A DNA stretch of 26,726 nt, taken from positions 1 to 26,726 of IMG/VR virus record IMGVR_UViG_3300025645_000381; one strand, given 5' to 3'. Origin of the DNA: a virus. Position 1 is the first letter of the stretch. Each line of letters starts with the position of its first letter. The translations under genes and the position numbers were made by a program. The notes under the pieces are model-generated. The model did no database searches. It was not told the DNA's origin and saw only the letters and a program-made list of their open reading frames with translations. Positions 17,961 through 26,674 of this stretch are shown in pieces.

Positions 17961-18035
17961 TTGAATCCCTTACCTTCGGTTGCTAAACTGCTTTTGCGAA
18001 AAAACTTATTTAAAACAACCAAAGGAAAGGAAATG
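17961..18035 (+). repeat. Hairpin leader, copy B
   Basis: This 75-bp leader ends in the ATG of the gene at 18033 and aligns without gaps to copy C (19418-19492) at about 60 of 75 positions. A hairpin pairs CCTTCGGTTG (17973-17982) with CAACCAAAGG (18016-18025) with one mismatch. Differences do not favour third codon positions, so conservation is at the nucleic-acid level although the frame is open. It includes the AAGGA ribosome-binding region. Confidence 0.7.
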
Positions 18036-18473
18036 GCAAAAAATACGGATTTGTTTCTTGAATGCGCTGCAAAACTAATTAGTGCAACACGTGAAGGGTA
18101 CCCTGCATTAATATCTCCTGATTTAGAGTCACTAACAGGTAAACGGTATAAATACTTTGGAGAACCTTTTGATGGACTAGAGCATGATGATGAACATGAA
18201 TTAATACAGGACACTGCTGACAGATTACTAGAGTTAGGTTTTTTGCACGCTCCTAGAGCGGACGAGCGAGGAATAATCTGGAATTGCGGATATTGTGATA
18301 CTCCCTTCACCATGGGTAAACCAACATTTGAACGTCTTTTCGGGGATATTTTAGACGACTCAACTATTGGAGACCGCATAACTAAAGCCGTAAAAGATGG
18401 CGCTAAATCAGAACTACCTAAACTTATGAGTAAAGGGTTTGCTGAGATATGTCGAGTAGCCATAATGAGTTGA
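18033..18473 (+). CDS. Plus-strand cassette gene B: unknown protein
   Basis: The protein has 146 residues from the ATG at 18033. The start follows AAAGGAAAGG; a longer frame from TTG at 17961 would translate the leader and is rejected. The centre (about 55-70: ELIQDTADRLLELGFL) resembles DTIKWLSDEGYI in cassette gene A, so the two may share a winged-helix core (weak). One CGYC motif lies near residue 89. The C-terminal helices (KAVKDGAKSELPKLM) are basic. Function unknown. It lies opposite to the early operon between two minus-strand genes. Confidence 0.65.
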   Translation: MAKNTDLFLECAAKLISATREGYPALISPDLESLTGKRYKYFGEPFDGLEHDDEHELIQDTADRLLELGFLHAPRADERGIIWNCGYCDTPFTMGKPTFERLFGDILDDSTIGDRITKAVKDGAKSELPKLMSKGFAEICRVAIMS

Positions 18474-19417: not shown

Positions 19418-19492
19418 TTGAATCCTAAACCTTTGGTTGCTAAAATGTTTTTGTCTGAAAACAAATTTAAAACAACCAAAGAAATAGAAATG
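19418..19492 (+). repeat. Hairpin leader, copy C
   Basis: This 75-bp leader is the counterpart of copy B, from TTGAATCC to the ATG of the gene at 19490. The stem is a perfect 9 bp: CTTTGGTTG (19431-19439) with CAACCAAAG (19473-19481), with a 33-nt loop. TTTAAAACAACCAAAG is identical in both copies. It lies just upstream of the start codon, so pairing would affect ribosome access. Confidence 0.72.
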
Positions 19493-19846
19493 GGTAAAGT
19501 TATAAACTTTCCAACCAGCAAAGACAGTCTGTGGCTTGAGCTTAAAAAAAGAATTGACGCGGAATTCGAGAAAACATGTTTAGAAGACAAATACAGGAAA
19601 GAATTCATCAGCAGATTCAAACCTACTCTTGAGTTAATGTATTTCACTTATGAGCTCCCTATTACCTTTGAATTCAACGAAGGCGACATTACTGAAAGCG
19701 GGGTCGAGACTTTGAACAACTCGATTGAATCCTACTTCAGCTCTTTTGAGACAGTCTTCAATAAACACATCACTAAGATCGCCTGTGATAGATACGTTTG
19801 GGAAATAGGACACTACTTTAGGGAGATTGGATTTACTCCTAGCTAG
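19490..19846 (+). CDS. Plus-strand cassette gene C: unknown protein
   Basis: This is a 118-residue acidic protein beginning MGKVINFPTSKDSLW. It has helical segments (LKKRIDAEFEKTCLEDKYRKEFISRF, about 16-41) and aromatic-rich parts (MYFTYELPITFEF; YVWEIGHYFREIGF at the end). No family is recognised. The ATG at 19490 is set by the hairpin leader. A minus-strand ORF (19634-19876) overlaps it and is judged a shadow. The gene is flanked by 16-bp direct repeats, suggesting insertion as a unit. Confidence 0.65.
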   Translation: MGKVINFPTSKDSLWLELKKRIDAEFEKTCLEDKYRKEFISRFKPTLELMYFTYELPITFEFNEGDITESGVETLNNSIESYFSSFETVFNKHITKIACDRYVWEIGHYFREIGFTPS

Positions 19847-21619: not shown

Positions 21620-21946
21620 CTAATATTTTTTAGGTGGCTCAATGCCTCCACCGTTACTCTCTACATTATTAGGTGGCTCAATACCTCCACCGTTACTCTC
21701 TACATTATTAGGTGGCTCAATACCTCCACCGTTACTCTCTGTCCGCAATATATTTTCTGCTTCTTTACTGATAGTAACGCTAAAGTCTTGGTCATTATCC
21801 ACATTAAGTGGCACAGATTCAACATTATTAACTATTTTACTATCGGACAAATCCGACTTTTTTACAGAGGTTTCCGACAACTTATTGTTTGAACTAGGCA
21901 TATCAGATCTTAATGCCGCTTCAGTACTTCCAGAATCAATTTTCAT
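21620..21946 (-). CDS. Small protein with C-terminal GGGIEPP repeats
   Basis: The protein has 108 residues from the ATG at 21946, chosen because AAGGA lies eight bases upstream; longer starts (21967, 21991) lack a site. The first 65 residues are polar and probably disordered (Ser, Asp, Lys). The end is a repeat: three copies of VESNGGGIEPP with NN spacers, closing in KKY. No signal peptide. No family is recognised. It is the first gene of a three-gene cassette with two membrane proteins and may expose the repeat for binding or processing. Confidence 0.6.
   Translation of the reverse strand: MKIDSGSTEAALRSDMPSSNNKLSETSVKKSDLSDSKIVNNVESVPLNVDNDQDFSVTISKEAENILRTESNGGGIEPPNNVESNGGGIEPPNNVESNGGGIEPPKKY
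21631..21739. repeat. 39-bp tandem repeat, about 2.8 copies
   Basis: Units begin at 21631, 21670 and 21709. The first two are full 39-bp units; the third is 31 bp before it diverges. They differ at a single site (GCC/ACC complement, Gly codon GGC or GGT, synonymous). The repeat is in frame with the gene at 21620 and encodes VESNGGGIEPPNN. Near-identity suggests recent expansion or continuous homogenisation. Confidence 0.9.
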
Positions 21947-22700: not shown

Positions 22701-23042
22701 ATGCAAACATCTGCTGCAAACGTTAATAAGAACTTAGATTTGATATCTAGAGCTATTTCAGCGGCTAAACGAGGTGAAATAGCCATTGGTTCAACATTTA
22801 AAGAAAACTACTTATGCGTAATTTGTCTTGCGCATAACCTTAACCGAACGATAAATCTTGAAGCAAACAACGCAAACATGAAACTCGATTCATTGCTGCA
22901 AGAACTATACGCCTTAATCCCTTCTGATGAAGCTATGGTGTGCACTGATTCAAATATAGAAGCCCCTTTTAAAAGTTCCACCAAAGCGGCTCTTACCGCT
23001 CCGTTAAGAGCCGCCCCTCACGGGGGGATTATTCATGTTTAG
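22701..23042 (+). CDS. Unknown early protein
   Basis: The protein has 113 residues from the ATG at 22701, with GGAG eight bases before; an in-frame ATG at 22566 lies in the previous gene and is rejected. The middle has CVIC (near residues 44-47) and a helical part. The C-terminus (STKAALTAPLRAAPHGGII) is encoded by two GC-rich hairpins, so its sequence may be driven by RNA structure. Its stop overlaps the next gene's start by 8 bp. Confidence 0.6.
   Translation: MQTSAANVNKNLDLISRAISAAKRGEIAIGSTFKENYLCVICLAHNLNRTINLEANNANMKLDSLLQELYALIPSDEAMVCTDSNIEAPFKSSTKAALTAPLRAAPHGGIIHV
22986..23028 (+). promoter_or_regulatory. Two consecutive hairpins over the next ribosome-binding site
   Basis: GCGGCTCTTA (22986-22995) and TAAGAGCCGC (23005-23014) are a perfect 10-bp stem with a 9-nt loop. 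Directly next, CCCC-TCAC-GGGG (from 23014) forms a small hairpin holding GGGGGGA, the ribosome-binding site of the gene at 23035. It is GC-rich in an AT-rich genome and lies within the coding end of the previous gene. It could be an attenuator or translational switch. Confidence 0.6.
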
Positions 23043-23427
23043 TGTATACGGTAAAAGCCTACAAGCCGCAAAAAAAACGGTGGGTAAGCAAATGATGAAT
23101 AACAAAAGTGATATCAGTGTTGAGTTGAAAAAAATGAATGACGCAACCCAAACCGATAAGCAATTGATTGTTGATAAGCATATCGATGACGTATTCAAAA
23201 ACATGAAATCAAAGCGCTGTACTCATGAATTCAGTACGCCTCATATCGCTCAAGAAGCATACCAATTAATGAAAAATGATACTGCCAATTTTAGTGATTT
23301 AAGAATAATGAAAAAACGCCCTAAGAAAAATGCTGAAGGCAATGTATTAACCAGCAAAGCAACTCGTAAACCATTAATGGAATGGGTTCCTTTATACGAA
23401 GAAGAACAAGCAAAAGAAGCAGCTTAA
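23035..23427 (+). CDS. Unknown early protein
   Basis: This is a 130-residue basic protein, with Lys-rich text (KKTVGKQMMNNKSDISVELKKMN) and a C-terminal KKRPKKNAEGN...MEWVPLYEEEQAKEA. No family is recognised. It lies directly upstream of the RdgC-like gene on the same strand. The ATG follows GGGGGGA and overlaps the previous stop. Confidence 0.6.
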   Translation: MFSVYGKSLQAAKKTVGKQMMNNKSDISVELKKMNDATQTDKQLIVDKHIDDVFKNMKSKRCTHEFSTPHIAQEAYQLMKNDTANFSDLRIMKKRPKKNAEGNVLTSKATRKPLMEWVPLYEEEQAKEAA

Positions 23428-23455: not shown

Positions 23456-24628
23456 ATGTGGTTTAAAAATATATTCATCTTCGCTTTTACTCGTCCGTTT
23501 ACATGGACTCAAGAGTTAATTGAAGAGCAATTACAGCAAAATGCATTTACTCCATGTGCGTCAACTGAAATGTCTCATTTTGGCTGGACCAAGCCGCTTG
23601 GTAAGCATGAAGTTTGGTTAACACACCAGGTTAACGGAAATATCTTAATTTGCGCACGTAAGGAAGAGAAAATACTTCCCGCACCAGTTATCAAAGATAT
23701 GCTTGATGAAAAAGTCGAGCAGCTTGAGGTGGAACAATCACGTAGTGCCACTAAAAAAGAAAAGGAACAATTTAAAGAAGATATTATTTTTGAATTATTA
23801 CCTCGCGCATTTTCGCGCATAAGTGATACACGCGCTTATATTTGTCCTGAGCAGAATATCATTGTTGTAGATGCTAGTAGCCGCGGTAAAGCTGAAGATT
23901 TTCTCGCCCTACTACGCAAATCACTAGGAACTTTACCTGTAACAACACCATCACCGGAGCGTGCACCTGATGAGGTGATGACTGAATGGTTAACTGAAGA
24001 TGGTCTTATTGAAGAGGCTTTAGGTGATAAATTCCAATTAGGCATGGAAGCCGAGTTTAATGCCCTTGGTGATGATGGTGCTATTGTCCGCGTAAAAAAT
24101 CAAGACTTAACCAGTGAAGAAGTGAAAAGCCATTTGGATGCTGATAAATACGTCACAAAAGTCGCGCTTCAGTTCGACGAAGCTATGTCATTCGTGCTCG
24201 CTGATGATTTATCAATTAAGCGTATTAAGTTCTTTGATGTTATCCATGAGCAAAACGATGATATCGACAGTGATGATGTTATGGCCAAGCTTGATGCTGA
24301 CTTTGCGCTAATGGCTGGTGAGTTAAATCGAATGATTAGCTGTTTACTAACTGAGTTTGGTATCAAGGCTAATGAATACGTAGAAAAAGAGTTATCCAAT
24401 GTTAAAGCAATAATTGATCTTAGCATTGATAAAGATGAGGTTGATTCTTTATATAACGATGTTGTCGAGTTCGTTACCGAAACACAGCGCGTTTCAATCT
24501 CAAGCATTCAACGCAAGTTCAGAATTGGCTATAACCGAGCAGCCCATATTGTTGAGCAGCTAGAATTAAACGACATTATTTCTGAGCCTGGCAATAATGG
24601 CGCAAGAGAAGTATTAGCAGCAGCTTAA
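23456..24628 (+). CDS. rdgC: RdgC fused to a C-terminal FtsK-gamma DNA-reading domain
   Basis: The protein has 390 residues; ordinary RdgC has about 300. Residues 1-303 are RdgC: the start [36 protein letters not shown] (about 75-90), and [12 protein letters not shown] near 280. A linker (about 304-329) leads to residues 330-390, a full FtsK-gamma winged helix: [29 protein letters not shown] and [14 protein letters not shown]. RdgC is a ring-forming duplex-DNA binder that limits RecA; FtsK-gamma reads KOPS sites and activates XerCD. The usual Arg after NRAA is His here. AAAGGT precedes the ATG. Confidence 0.93.
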
Positions 24629-24685: not shown

Positions 24686-25543
24686 ATGCAAACTCAACAA
24701 ATAGCACAAGCAGTACAGGCTTTACCCTTGGCTGATGCTATCAATCAACTTATTGCCTCTTATGAAGCTGACGCGCAAGAGTCAAATAAATTAGTTGATG
24801 AAATAGAAAATAGCGAACAAGAAAACACGTTTTTAAAACTTCAGCTATCAAACATGAGCAAACGCTTAAATGAAGTCATCGGCGAAAACGATCAATTAGT
24901 AGCAGCGAGAAAGCGTGATGAAGCAAAAGAAAAAGATTTTAACAAGAAAGCGCAAATGGTTTCTGACAACGCAAAGCAGCACATGCAAATGCTTGAGCAA
25001 GCCCAACGAGAAAAAGCTCAACGAGAAAAAGCTCAAATTGAAGTAAGACTTGATGATGCTATGTTAACTATCGCGTCATATAAAGAAATGGGCTCACCTA
25101 AAAAAATTCGAGAACAACGAAAAGATTACCAAGACCGTATTGCCAAACATTTAGCCGCGGAAATACAGCACAAAATTGAAATCAAAAACTATCGTCATTC
25201 AATTGCCAAAGCTGAAGATGCAGTAAAGGAAATTACTTACCGCTTGCGTGAAATAGATATGACTGAAGCATACAACCAAAATGGCGAACACTTGTGGTTA
25301 TTCCCTAAAGTTATGCAGATCACTAACCGTGGCATGAATGATAAAGAGATTTGTTTCCTTTATCTCAACGACGATGGCCGCGGCTGTTTAATGACGCTTG
25401 ATGAAGATGGCGAGATTGTTCTAGGTAAAGCCCCTATTCGTCCTAAAGCCGAAACTAAAGCGCATGCTGGTATGTTATTGCGCAAGTTCAAAAAGAATGG
25501 CTGGACTGTCCAGGTTGACGATTTACAAGTGATAGGTGGTTAA
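24686..25543 (+). CDS. Long coiled-coil early protein
   Basis: The protein has 285 residues. Residues about 25-205 are a charged, heptad-like coiled coil (Glu/Lys/Gln-rich), including a 15-bp DNA repeat at 25004-25033 giving AQREK twice. The last 75 residues (from about 207: HLWLFPKVMQITNRG...CFLYLNDDGRGCLMTLDEDG) form a separate globular part with strands. No family is recognised. It lies between the RdgC fusion and the methyltransferase, probably expressed with them. Its stop overlaps the start region of the methyltransferase gene. Confidence 0.7.
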   Translation: MQTQQIAQAVQALPLADAINQLIASYEADAQESNKLVDEIENSEQENTFLKLQLSNMSKRLNEVIGENDQLVAARKRDEAKEKDFNKKAQMVSDNAKQHMQMLEQAQREKAQREKAQIEVRLDDAMLTIASYKEMGSPKKIREQRKDYQDRIAKHLAAEIQHKIEIKNYRHSIAKAEDAVKEITYRLREIDMTEAYNQNGEHLWLFPKVMQITNRGMNDKEICFLYLNDDGRGCLMTLDEDGEIVLGKAPIRPKAETKAHAGMLLRKFKKNGWTVQVDDLQVIGG

Positions 25544-25544
25544 A

Positions 25545-26210
25545 ATGAATTATTTACAAAAATTATTAAACGCTAAATTAAAACAATTACATAGCGCAGC
25601 TGACGTACAAGACGAATGGCGCACACCTGATCTAGAGTTTCTTGGTATTCAGCACCTGTACTGCCCTGGTGGTTCGTTTTCAATTGATTTATTCACTGAT
25701 GGAACTATCAATTCAAAAGCCCCGTTGTTTTTTACTGCAAAAGATAACGCGCTAAATCAAGACTGGGGTAAATACTGCAAAGAGCAAGGTGTGCCACCAG
25801 TAGGGTTTGCTAACCCTCCATTTTCAAAACCATACAAAGGCAAATTAGATGATGGTTCAACATGCACAGGCTTAAGCGATATTATGAAAAAAGCACATGT
25901 TGAAATGCATTTAGGTTTTAGGTCTGTGTTTTTCGTGCCTAATAACATAGAAGCTGACTGGTTCCCACATCGACTATCTAAACACCCTGCAAGTGCTGTT
26001 TATAAATTAGTGAATGGCCGTGTAAGTTTCGACACACCGCAATGGTACAAACAAGATCCTGATGGCAGCAAACCTAGCTCAAGCCGTGGCGGCATGGCGG
26101 TAGTAATATTTGACCCTAACCACCGTGGACCAGAAATTGACGATATTGTTTCTCGTGACCAATTACGTGCATTAGGCCAATTGGTTTTAGATGCAAAGGA
26201 TGCTGCGTAA
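25545..26210 (+). CDS. dam: Phage DNA N6-adenine methyltransferase (Dam family)
   Basis: The protein has 221 residues from the ATG at 25545, with AGGTGG five bases upstream; an upstream GTG is rejected. It has the phage Dam family pattern: DEWRTPDLEF (about 23-32), FSIDLFTD (45-52, cofactor region), the W of LNQDWGKY (71-77) and the catalytic NPPF (90-93). It should methylate adenine, probably in GATC, protecting phage DNA from restriction or timing replication. Specificity cannot be read from sequence. The stop overlaps the next ATG. Confidence 0.88.
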   Translation: MNYLQKLLNAKLKQLHSAADVQDEWRTPDLEFLGIQHLYCPGGSFSIDLFTDGTINSKAPLFFTAKDNALNQDWGKYCKEQGVPPVGFANPPFSKPYKGKLDDGSTCTGLSDIMKKAHVEMHLGFRSVFFVPNNIEADWFPHRLSKHPASAVYKLVNGRVSFDTPQWYKQDPDGSKPSSSRGGMAVVIFDPNHRGPEIDDIVSRDQLRALGQLVLDAKDAA

Positions 26211-26674
26211 TGAAAATATCTTACGACGCTCTAATTCAAGCAATTTGGACTTACCAGTTAAAAACTTTAAGTAAAGGCGTATTACATCACTACATTGGTG
26301 GTAGGTTCGGTGTGGTTAATACTGATTGGTTTCTCAACGCTTCTGGTATTCATACTTGTGAACGCGGCTTAATAACTGACAAGTTAGGCAAGCAGCAAAT
26401 GTACAAGCGTATACGAGAATTGATAGAACATAAGTATTTAAATTGGGCTCATAAACCCAATACTTTTTTTATTGATACTCTACAGTCAAATCAAGCGTTT
26501 GATGTGGCTCGTAAATTTTGGCTATCGAAAGGTGTACCAGAAGGTTTCGAAGAAGGGAAATGTCGATGTGTTCCATTAGATAATCACAAGCAGTTAATCG
26601 ATGAATGTTTTTTACTATTACAAAGCAAATTCAAGTCAGTTGATTGGAATGAATTGACTGACAAGGTGGTTTAA
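26210..26674 (+). CDS. Unknown early protein, possible HTH
   Basis: The 154 residues include the segment LITDKLGKQQMYKRIRELIEHKYLNW (about 56-80), which could form a helix-turn-helix. Cys pairs occur near 108-115 (GKCRC). No family is recognised. The ATG overlaps the methyltransferase TAA, so the two are translationally coupled. It is in the rightward early operon. Confidence 0.6.
   Translation: MKISYDALIQAIWTYQLKTLSKGVLHHYIGGRFGVVNTDWFLNASGIHTCERGLITDKLGKQQMYKRIRELIEHKYLNWAHKPNTFFIDTLQSNQAFDVARKFWLSKGVPEGFEEGKCRCVPLDNHKQLIDECFLLLQSKFKSVDWNELTDKVV

Follow-up and report, generated by a model that had tools for sequence, protein, structure and literature searches.

To our knowledge, the functions of the FtsK gamma domain have been studied almost exclusively within FtsK itself. 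Gamma recognises KOPS through residues R1300, E1303 and E1306, whose joint mutation blinds FtsK to this motif; the R1300A variant still supports XerCD-dif recombination (PMC2680272). In the published structure, the gamma residues that contact XerD (Q1288, R1289, R1292, I1293, G1294 and N1296) are a subset of those that contact DNA, and a nonapeptide comprising FtsK residues 1289-1297 is sufficient to stimulate XerCD-dif recombination (PMC5052618).

The closest described parallel is the small terminase of Bacillus phages Sam46 and Sam112, a DNA-binding phage protein that carries an N-terminal FtsK_gamma domain (PMC8190038). Gamma has likewise been moved onto DNA-binding proteins in the laboratory fusions XerC-gamma and XerD-gamma, although these are artificial and the carrier is the recombinase itself (PMC5052618). 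Lambda RexA is also a phage protein that binds DNA and has central and base domains of the RdgC type, but it lacks gamma, was crystallised in a closed form rather than as a ring, and has an exclusion function together with RexB (PMC11077077).

The window analysed here, a 26.7-kb IMG/VR virus contig, encodes a protein in which an RdgC domain is joined to FtsK gamma. As in E. coli and other gammaproteobacterial RdgC proteins (PF04381; 2OWL), the RdgC domain is full-length and has the same fold. However, host RdgC ends at about 303-312 amino acids, whereas the window protein continues into a linker and gamma, and the fused form is carried by phages, prophages and plasmids. With FtsK gamma (PF09397; 2VE8, 2VE9, 5DCF) the protein shares the winged helix, all six XerD contacts, E1303 and E1306, but it lacks the motor, has His at the 1300 position, and joins gamma to a DNA ring. 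Like the Sam46 and Sam112 terminase it is a phage protein with an acquired FtsK gamma, although that protein functions in packaging, carries gamma at its N-terminus, and belongs to Firmicute phages.

An RdgC-gamma fusion in a temperate phage

The window encodes a terminase, a portal, a head protease and an endolysin-type gene, along with a tyrosine integrase, a lambda O-type initiator, a P-type loader and a Cro/C1-type repressor. On the basis of these structural, lysis, integrase, replication and repressor genes, it derives from a temperate tailed phage. The fusion occupies a single intact frame with an ATG start (Table 1). A Pfam search matched PF04381 over its whole length (profile positions 1-296 of 298, E=7e-113) and PF09397 at E=4.6e-24 (1.1e-26 in an own-genome search), both well past the Pfam cut-off. 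The same scan found neither the FtsK motor family (alpha-beta) nor a terminase family in the 390-aa chain.

An AlphaFold2 model of the monomer, made with an input alignment of 58 sequences, comprises two confident domains (mean pLDDT 90) and one weak stretch (aa 311-330, pLDDT about 54-55), which is the linker; alignments reveal that the length and sequence of this linker differ between relatives. Foldseek comparisons matched the RdgC half of the model to E. coli RdgC (2OWL_B of entry 2OWL, TM to target 0.94) and the gamma half to KOPS-bound FtsK gamma (2VE9, TM 0.93-0.96), as well as weakly to the XerD-gamma complex (5DCF). A frameshift or a chimeric contig was ruled out, since an intact 383-aa fusion with identical architecture (69-72% identical) recurs at the same gene-order position in independent contigs (L007, L008/L009 and L011). 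The original prediction that one 390-codon frame holds both RdgC and FtsK gamma, with His in place of the Arg that follows NRAA, is correct in both respects: the fusion is real, and His364 occupies the position of E. coli R1300.

Table 1. Features of the fusion gene and of its neighbours, in window coordinates
Feature	Position	Strand	Basis or remark
Conserved 96-aa gene, Colwelliaceae-phage cassette	22322..22612	+	Locus comparison
Conserved 130-aa gene, adjoins RdgC-gamma upstream, same cassette	23035..23427	+	57-65% in L007, L008, L011
RdgC-gamma frame, 390 aa	23456..24628	+	
RdgC domain, aa 1-302	23456..24361	+	Pfam, fold match, host identity, tree
Linker, 25 aa, aa 303-327	24362..24436	+	Alignments, low pLDDT
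FtsK_gamma winged helix, aa 328-388	24437..24619	+	Pfam, own-genome search, fold match
RKFRIGYNR, aa 353-361, counterpart of E. coli FtsK 1289-1297 (RQFRIGYNR)	24512..24538	+	Alignment; PMC5052618
His364 codon (cat), replaces KOPS-reading Arg1300	24545..24547	+	Alignment; PMC2680272
285-aa gene of unassigned family, adjoins RdgC-gamma downstream	24686..25543	+	Sequence suggests coiled coil
Dam-type N6-adenine DNA methyltransferase	25536..26210	+	Pfam PF05869 4.9e-16; phrog_111
154-aa gene	26210..26674	+	Kept in L008 and L012

Each of the five fused Colwelliaceae-phage loci has the 285-aa gene, and the unfused locus L012, whose Dam and 154-aa genes place it in the group of the window phage, lacks it. 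The product of this gene is possibly a partner of RdgC-gamma. More widely, the neighbourhoods of carriers include SSB (22 of 66 fused loci), exonuclease, RecE/RecT, and cytosine or Dam methylases. Such recombination and DNA-modification neighbours fit a RecA-modulating ring for phage DNA replication and recombination.

Two repeats were also observed elsewhere in the window. An 81-nt direct repeat (17961-18041 and 19418-19498, 79% identical) has its two copies over the leaders and starts of two separate small genes, and may be a duplicated expression signal or leader. At 21627-21743, a 39-nt unit present three times in tandem lies in a minus-strand frame and encodes repeated SNGGGIEPPNNVE units.

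Mobile-element distribution and turnover of gamma

The fusion is common and no singular case. Among annotated phages, 156 records match at least 80% of the query; named carriers include Vibrio phages ST2-1pr, PS14A.1, HY01 and SHOU24, the Pseudomonas PA8 group, and Pararheinheimera KLER1-1. RdgC-bearing IMG/VR loci were fused in 55 of 82 cases and unfused in 27, a proportion that is not a frequency, as resemblance to the fusion guided the choice of these loci. The fusion is also present on large Pseudomonas plasmids (192-343 kb) and on a Chromobacterium plasmid of 74 kb.

On chromosomes, gamma was attached to RdgC at none of 79 Colwelliaceae-type loci, and RdgC-gamma was found on none of the chromosomes of 92 other RdgC-bearing gammaproteobacterial genomes. 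A census of 274 gammaproteobacterial genomes, decided by per-genome counts and RdgC frame lengths, detected RdgC in 93 and gamma in 261. A frame with both was seen only in Aeromonas rivipollensis, a genome that was in the set because it has the fusion; the remaining genomes were called non-fused from a single gamma per genome or an RdgC frame that is too short. The A. rivipollensis fusion sits in a prophage with a RecE-like exonuclease, a RecT-like annealing protein, a PmgS-like protein and an integrase. Six genomes (G010, G039, G043, G145, G224 and G274) have a second FtsK_gamma match; they either lack an RdgC frame or have one of insufficient length for a fusion.

RdgC-gamma is therefore a property of mobile elements (phages, prophages and large plasmids) in the genomes sampled. 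As to whether such proteins are all phage-encoded, only mobile elements carry them in these samples, but large plasmids do so as well as phages. As to the proposed role during lysogeny, the fusion is not confined to that state, and a role tied to lysogeny alone is unlikely because plasmids and some annotated carrier genomes without a listed integrase hold the fusion. The original remark that such a fusion is not known to have been described agrees with our search of the open-access literature, where no paper names the fusion or mentions RdgC together with 'FtsK gamma'. What these data describe is a recurrent variant combining two well-known domains, and not a new kind of system.

Three individual loci showed further peculiarities of sequence or annotation. 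Pseudomonas plasmids NZ_CP096947.1 (L170:7947-9155) and NZ_CP115217.1 (L171:5959-7161) encode intact RdgC-gamma proteins of about 400 aa, yet these frames are annotated over their last 53-84 codons only, as 'DNA translocase FtsK', and the RdgC part is unlisted. In Vibrio phage HY01 (L005:3986-5284), the linker stretch LLTDVINLVVETGRSVVG looks as if the first gamma helix had been partly duplicated, and is weakly matched by the gamma profile.

One ancient fusion followed by inheritance was rejected by the RdgC-domain tree, a quick tree with some long branches, on which the fused state undergoes 15 changes, at least 11 of them forced by well-supported branches. The window group falls within the host RdgCs of Colwelliaceae, an Aeromonas fusion group is placed next to the RdgC from the chromosome of the same Aeromonas genome, and the group that includes the Pseudomonas phages is placed next to another host RdgC. 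An exact in-frame difference of 240 bp, corresponding to gamma plus linker, separates two Aeromonas prophages, one fused (L168:10001-11152) and one unfused (L026:10001-10912), whose RdgC DNA is 93% identical and whose following genes are 90% identical over 112 bases at their start. Gamma has thus been repeatedly gained or lost on mobile-element RdgC.

The RdgC of the window is 70-76% identical to Colwelliaceae chromosomal RdgC, with the nearest at 78% over 301 columns. Gamma domains of the window group (window, L007, L008 and L011) are 68-80% identical to Colwelliaceae FtsK gamma, roughly as near as to their best phage relatives. That of the window itself is 68-71% identical to FtsK gamma of the likely host family, as against 72-75% for its best phage relatives, a comparison over 60 residues that cannot prove host origin; the gamma-domain tree, with 60 columns, has too low a resolution to settle all origins. 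These values fit assembly of the window fusion from host parts, with both halves apparently derived from Colwelliaceae.

Conserved gamma residues, candidate targets and possible functions

Fusion sequences were clustered at 90% identity, yielding 47 clusters for comparison with 62 FtsK clusters. Residues Q1288, R1289, N1296, G1318 and R1320 are invariant in all 47, and E1303 and E1306 are kept in 45 and 43, respectively. In contrast, R1300 is kept in 36 fusion clusters and changed in 11, versus 62 of 62 kept in FtsK (p=4.5e-5, for an FtsK sample that favours high-scoring members and clusters that are not fully independent), and it alone is relaxed within the KOPS triad. Of the 47 fusion clusters, 33 keep the full triad, which is incomplete in the window (H, E, E), whereas 40 keep the full XerD contact set, which is complete in the window. 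R1280 and D1270, near-invariant in FtsK, are variable in fusions. The RKFRIGYNR segment of the window is identical in five Colwelliaceae FtsKs. Retention of the contact residues across fusion clusters shows that gamma is no remnant in decay, and the His at the R1300 position could alter KOPS reading. Sequence cannot separate a DNA target from an XerD target, because the XerD contacts lie within the DNA contacts.

Carrier genomes were also examined for sequences that gamma might recognise. GGGNAGGG is absent from the window, and motif numbers are near chance in ST2-1pr, PS14A.1, KLER1-1 and PA8. The scan covered 47 records, and an order-4 coding-oriented Markov null with a reversed-motif control was run on nine genomes. 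Two large high-GC carriers, one of which has Ala at 1300, exhibit an excess of KOPS (z=3.3). For seven high-GC carriers pooled, 131 KOPS were observed and 78 expected, compared with 70 and 52 for the reversed control, and the excess over this control is not significant as estimated from the pooled totals. An enrichment first suggested by raw counts of fused versus unfused carriers, where a single Aeromonas-type lineage makes up most of the unfused set, did not significantly exceed the reversed control under the Markov null. No dif site was found in the carrier genomes tested, where the best candidates have at least 7 mismatches, and no candidate target sequence for gamma was found in the carrier genomes examined. 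Direction of RdgC by gamma to KOPS-rich phage DNA or to a phage dif site accordingly finds no support in these genomes. Colwellia genomes carry GGGNAGGG with a clear contig-wise polarity, as read from listed positions, and so a KOPS system is likely present in the host family Colwelliaceae. Given that carriers show no clear KOPS excess and no dif, any known gamma target would probably be on the host chromosome.

Our preferred reading, held tentatively and with slightly less than even confidence, is that this protein is a mobile-element RdgC variant in which gamma serves as a DNA-docking module, possibly for XerD too, that probably acts on host DNA. As in the rest of its family, the RdgC part would form a dimeric ring on duplex DNA without sequence preference, and would restrain RecA during phage replication and recombination. 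Gamma would most likely bring this ring to particular G-rich sites of the FtsK type or, in proteins with a substituted R1300 such as that of the window, to sites of changed sequence; relaxation of R1300 alone is what one would expect from a shift in the sequence read. It would probably act in trans, on the host chromosome, and XerD could be contacted through the same surface. We infer both this DNA targeting and a benefit to the phage. DNA binding alone can explain the conserved surface, since the XerD contacts lie within the DNA contacts (PMC5052618), and retention of residues outside the XerD contact set (G1318, R1320, E1303 and E1306) counts for DNA docking. Against it are the lack of KOPS enrichment over control and the fact that XerD contact would preserve most of the same residues.

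It is rather unlikely that the ring-tethered gamma instead activates or ties up XerD without the FtsK motor, thereby altering host dimer resolution or division, or the resolution of multimers of circular elements. Such an activity would suit the invariance of Q1288, R1289 and N1296, the more frequent preservation of the XerD set than of the KOPS triad, and the window segment RKFRIGYNR, which is one residue from the E. coli nonapeptide that stimulates XerCD-dif recombination (PMC5052618). Changes at R1300 would be neutral, since R1300A supports this recombination (PMC2680272), and gamma placed on XerC, another DNA-bound protein, works without translocation (PMC5052618). However, the invariant residues contact DNA as well, G1318 and R1320 are equally invariant though they are not XerD contacts, the carrier genomes tested have no dif-like site, and the fusion also occurs in phages without a listed integrase. 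In a related reading, which we consider unlikely, RdgC-gamma might be a regulator through which mobile elements switch on or take over host XerCD with no FtsK motor, its DNA-clamped gamma uncoupling dif recombination from the septum; KOPS reading would be relaxed since there would be no translocation to aim.

A generic affinity tail, in which a small winged helix strengthens non-specific binding to DNA or makes the protein more stable, would accommodate the relaxed R1300, the variable R1280 and D1270, the unconstrained linker, and prophages that keep the gene while gaining or losing gamma. We judge this explanation improbable, as the base-reading E1303 and E1306 and the contact residues are kept in 91-100% of clusters across many lineages, and the repeated changes of state all converge on a C-terminal gamma. 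Competition with FtsK, whereby RdgC-gamma would occupy host KOPS or pair with FtsK and so block septal DNA pumping in infection, is very unlikely: although the window gamma is nearly as close to host-family FtsK gamma as to phage relatives and Colwellia chromosomes have polarised GGGNAGGG, the key KOPS Arg is lost in the window, which would weaken competition, and the fusion is also found on plasmids, which live with their host.

These findings expose automated annotation that names the gamma end of such frames 'DNA translocase FtsK'. The Aeromonas prophage pairs with and without gamma offer a direct route to what this domain adds to a DNA ring. More generally, a natural, recurrent fusion of this kind lets one ask whether phages and plasmids reach into the KOPS/XerCD system of their hosts.
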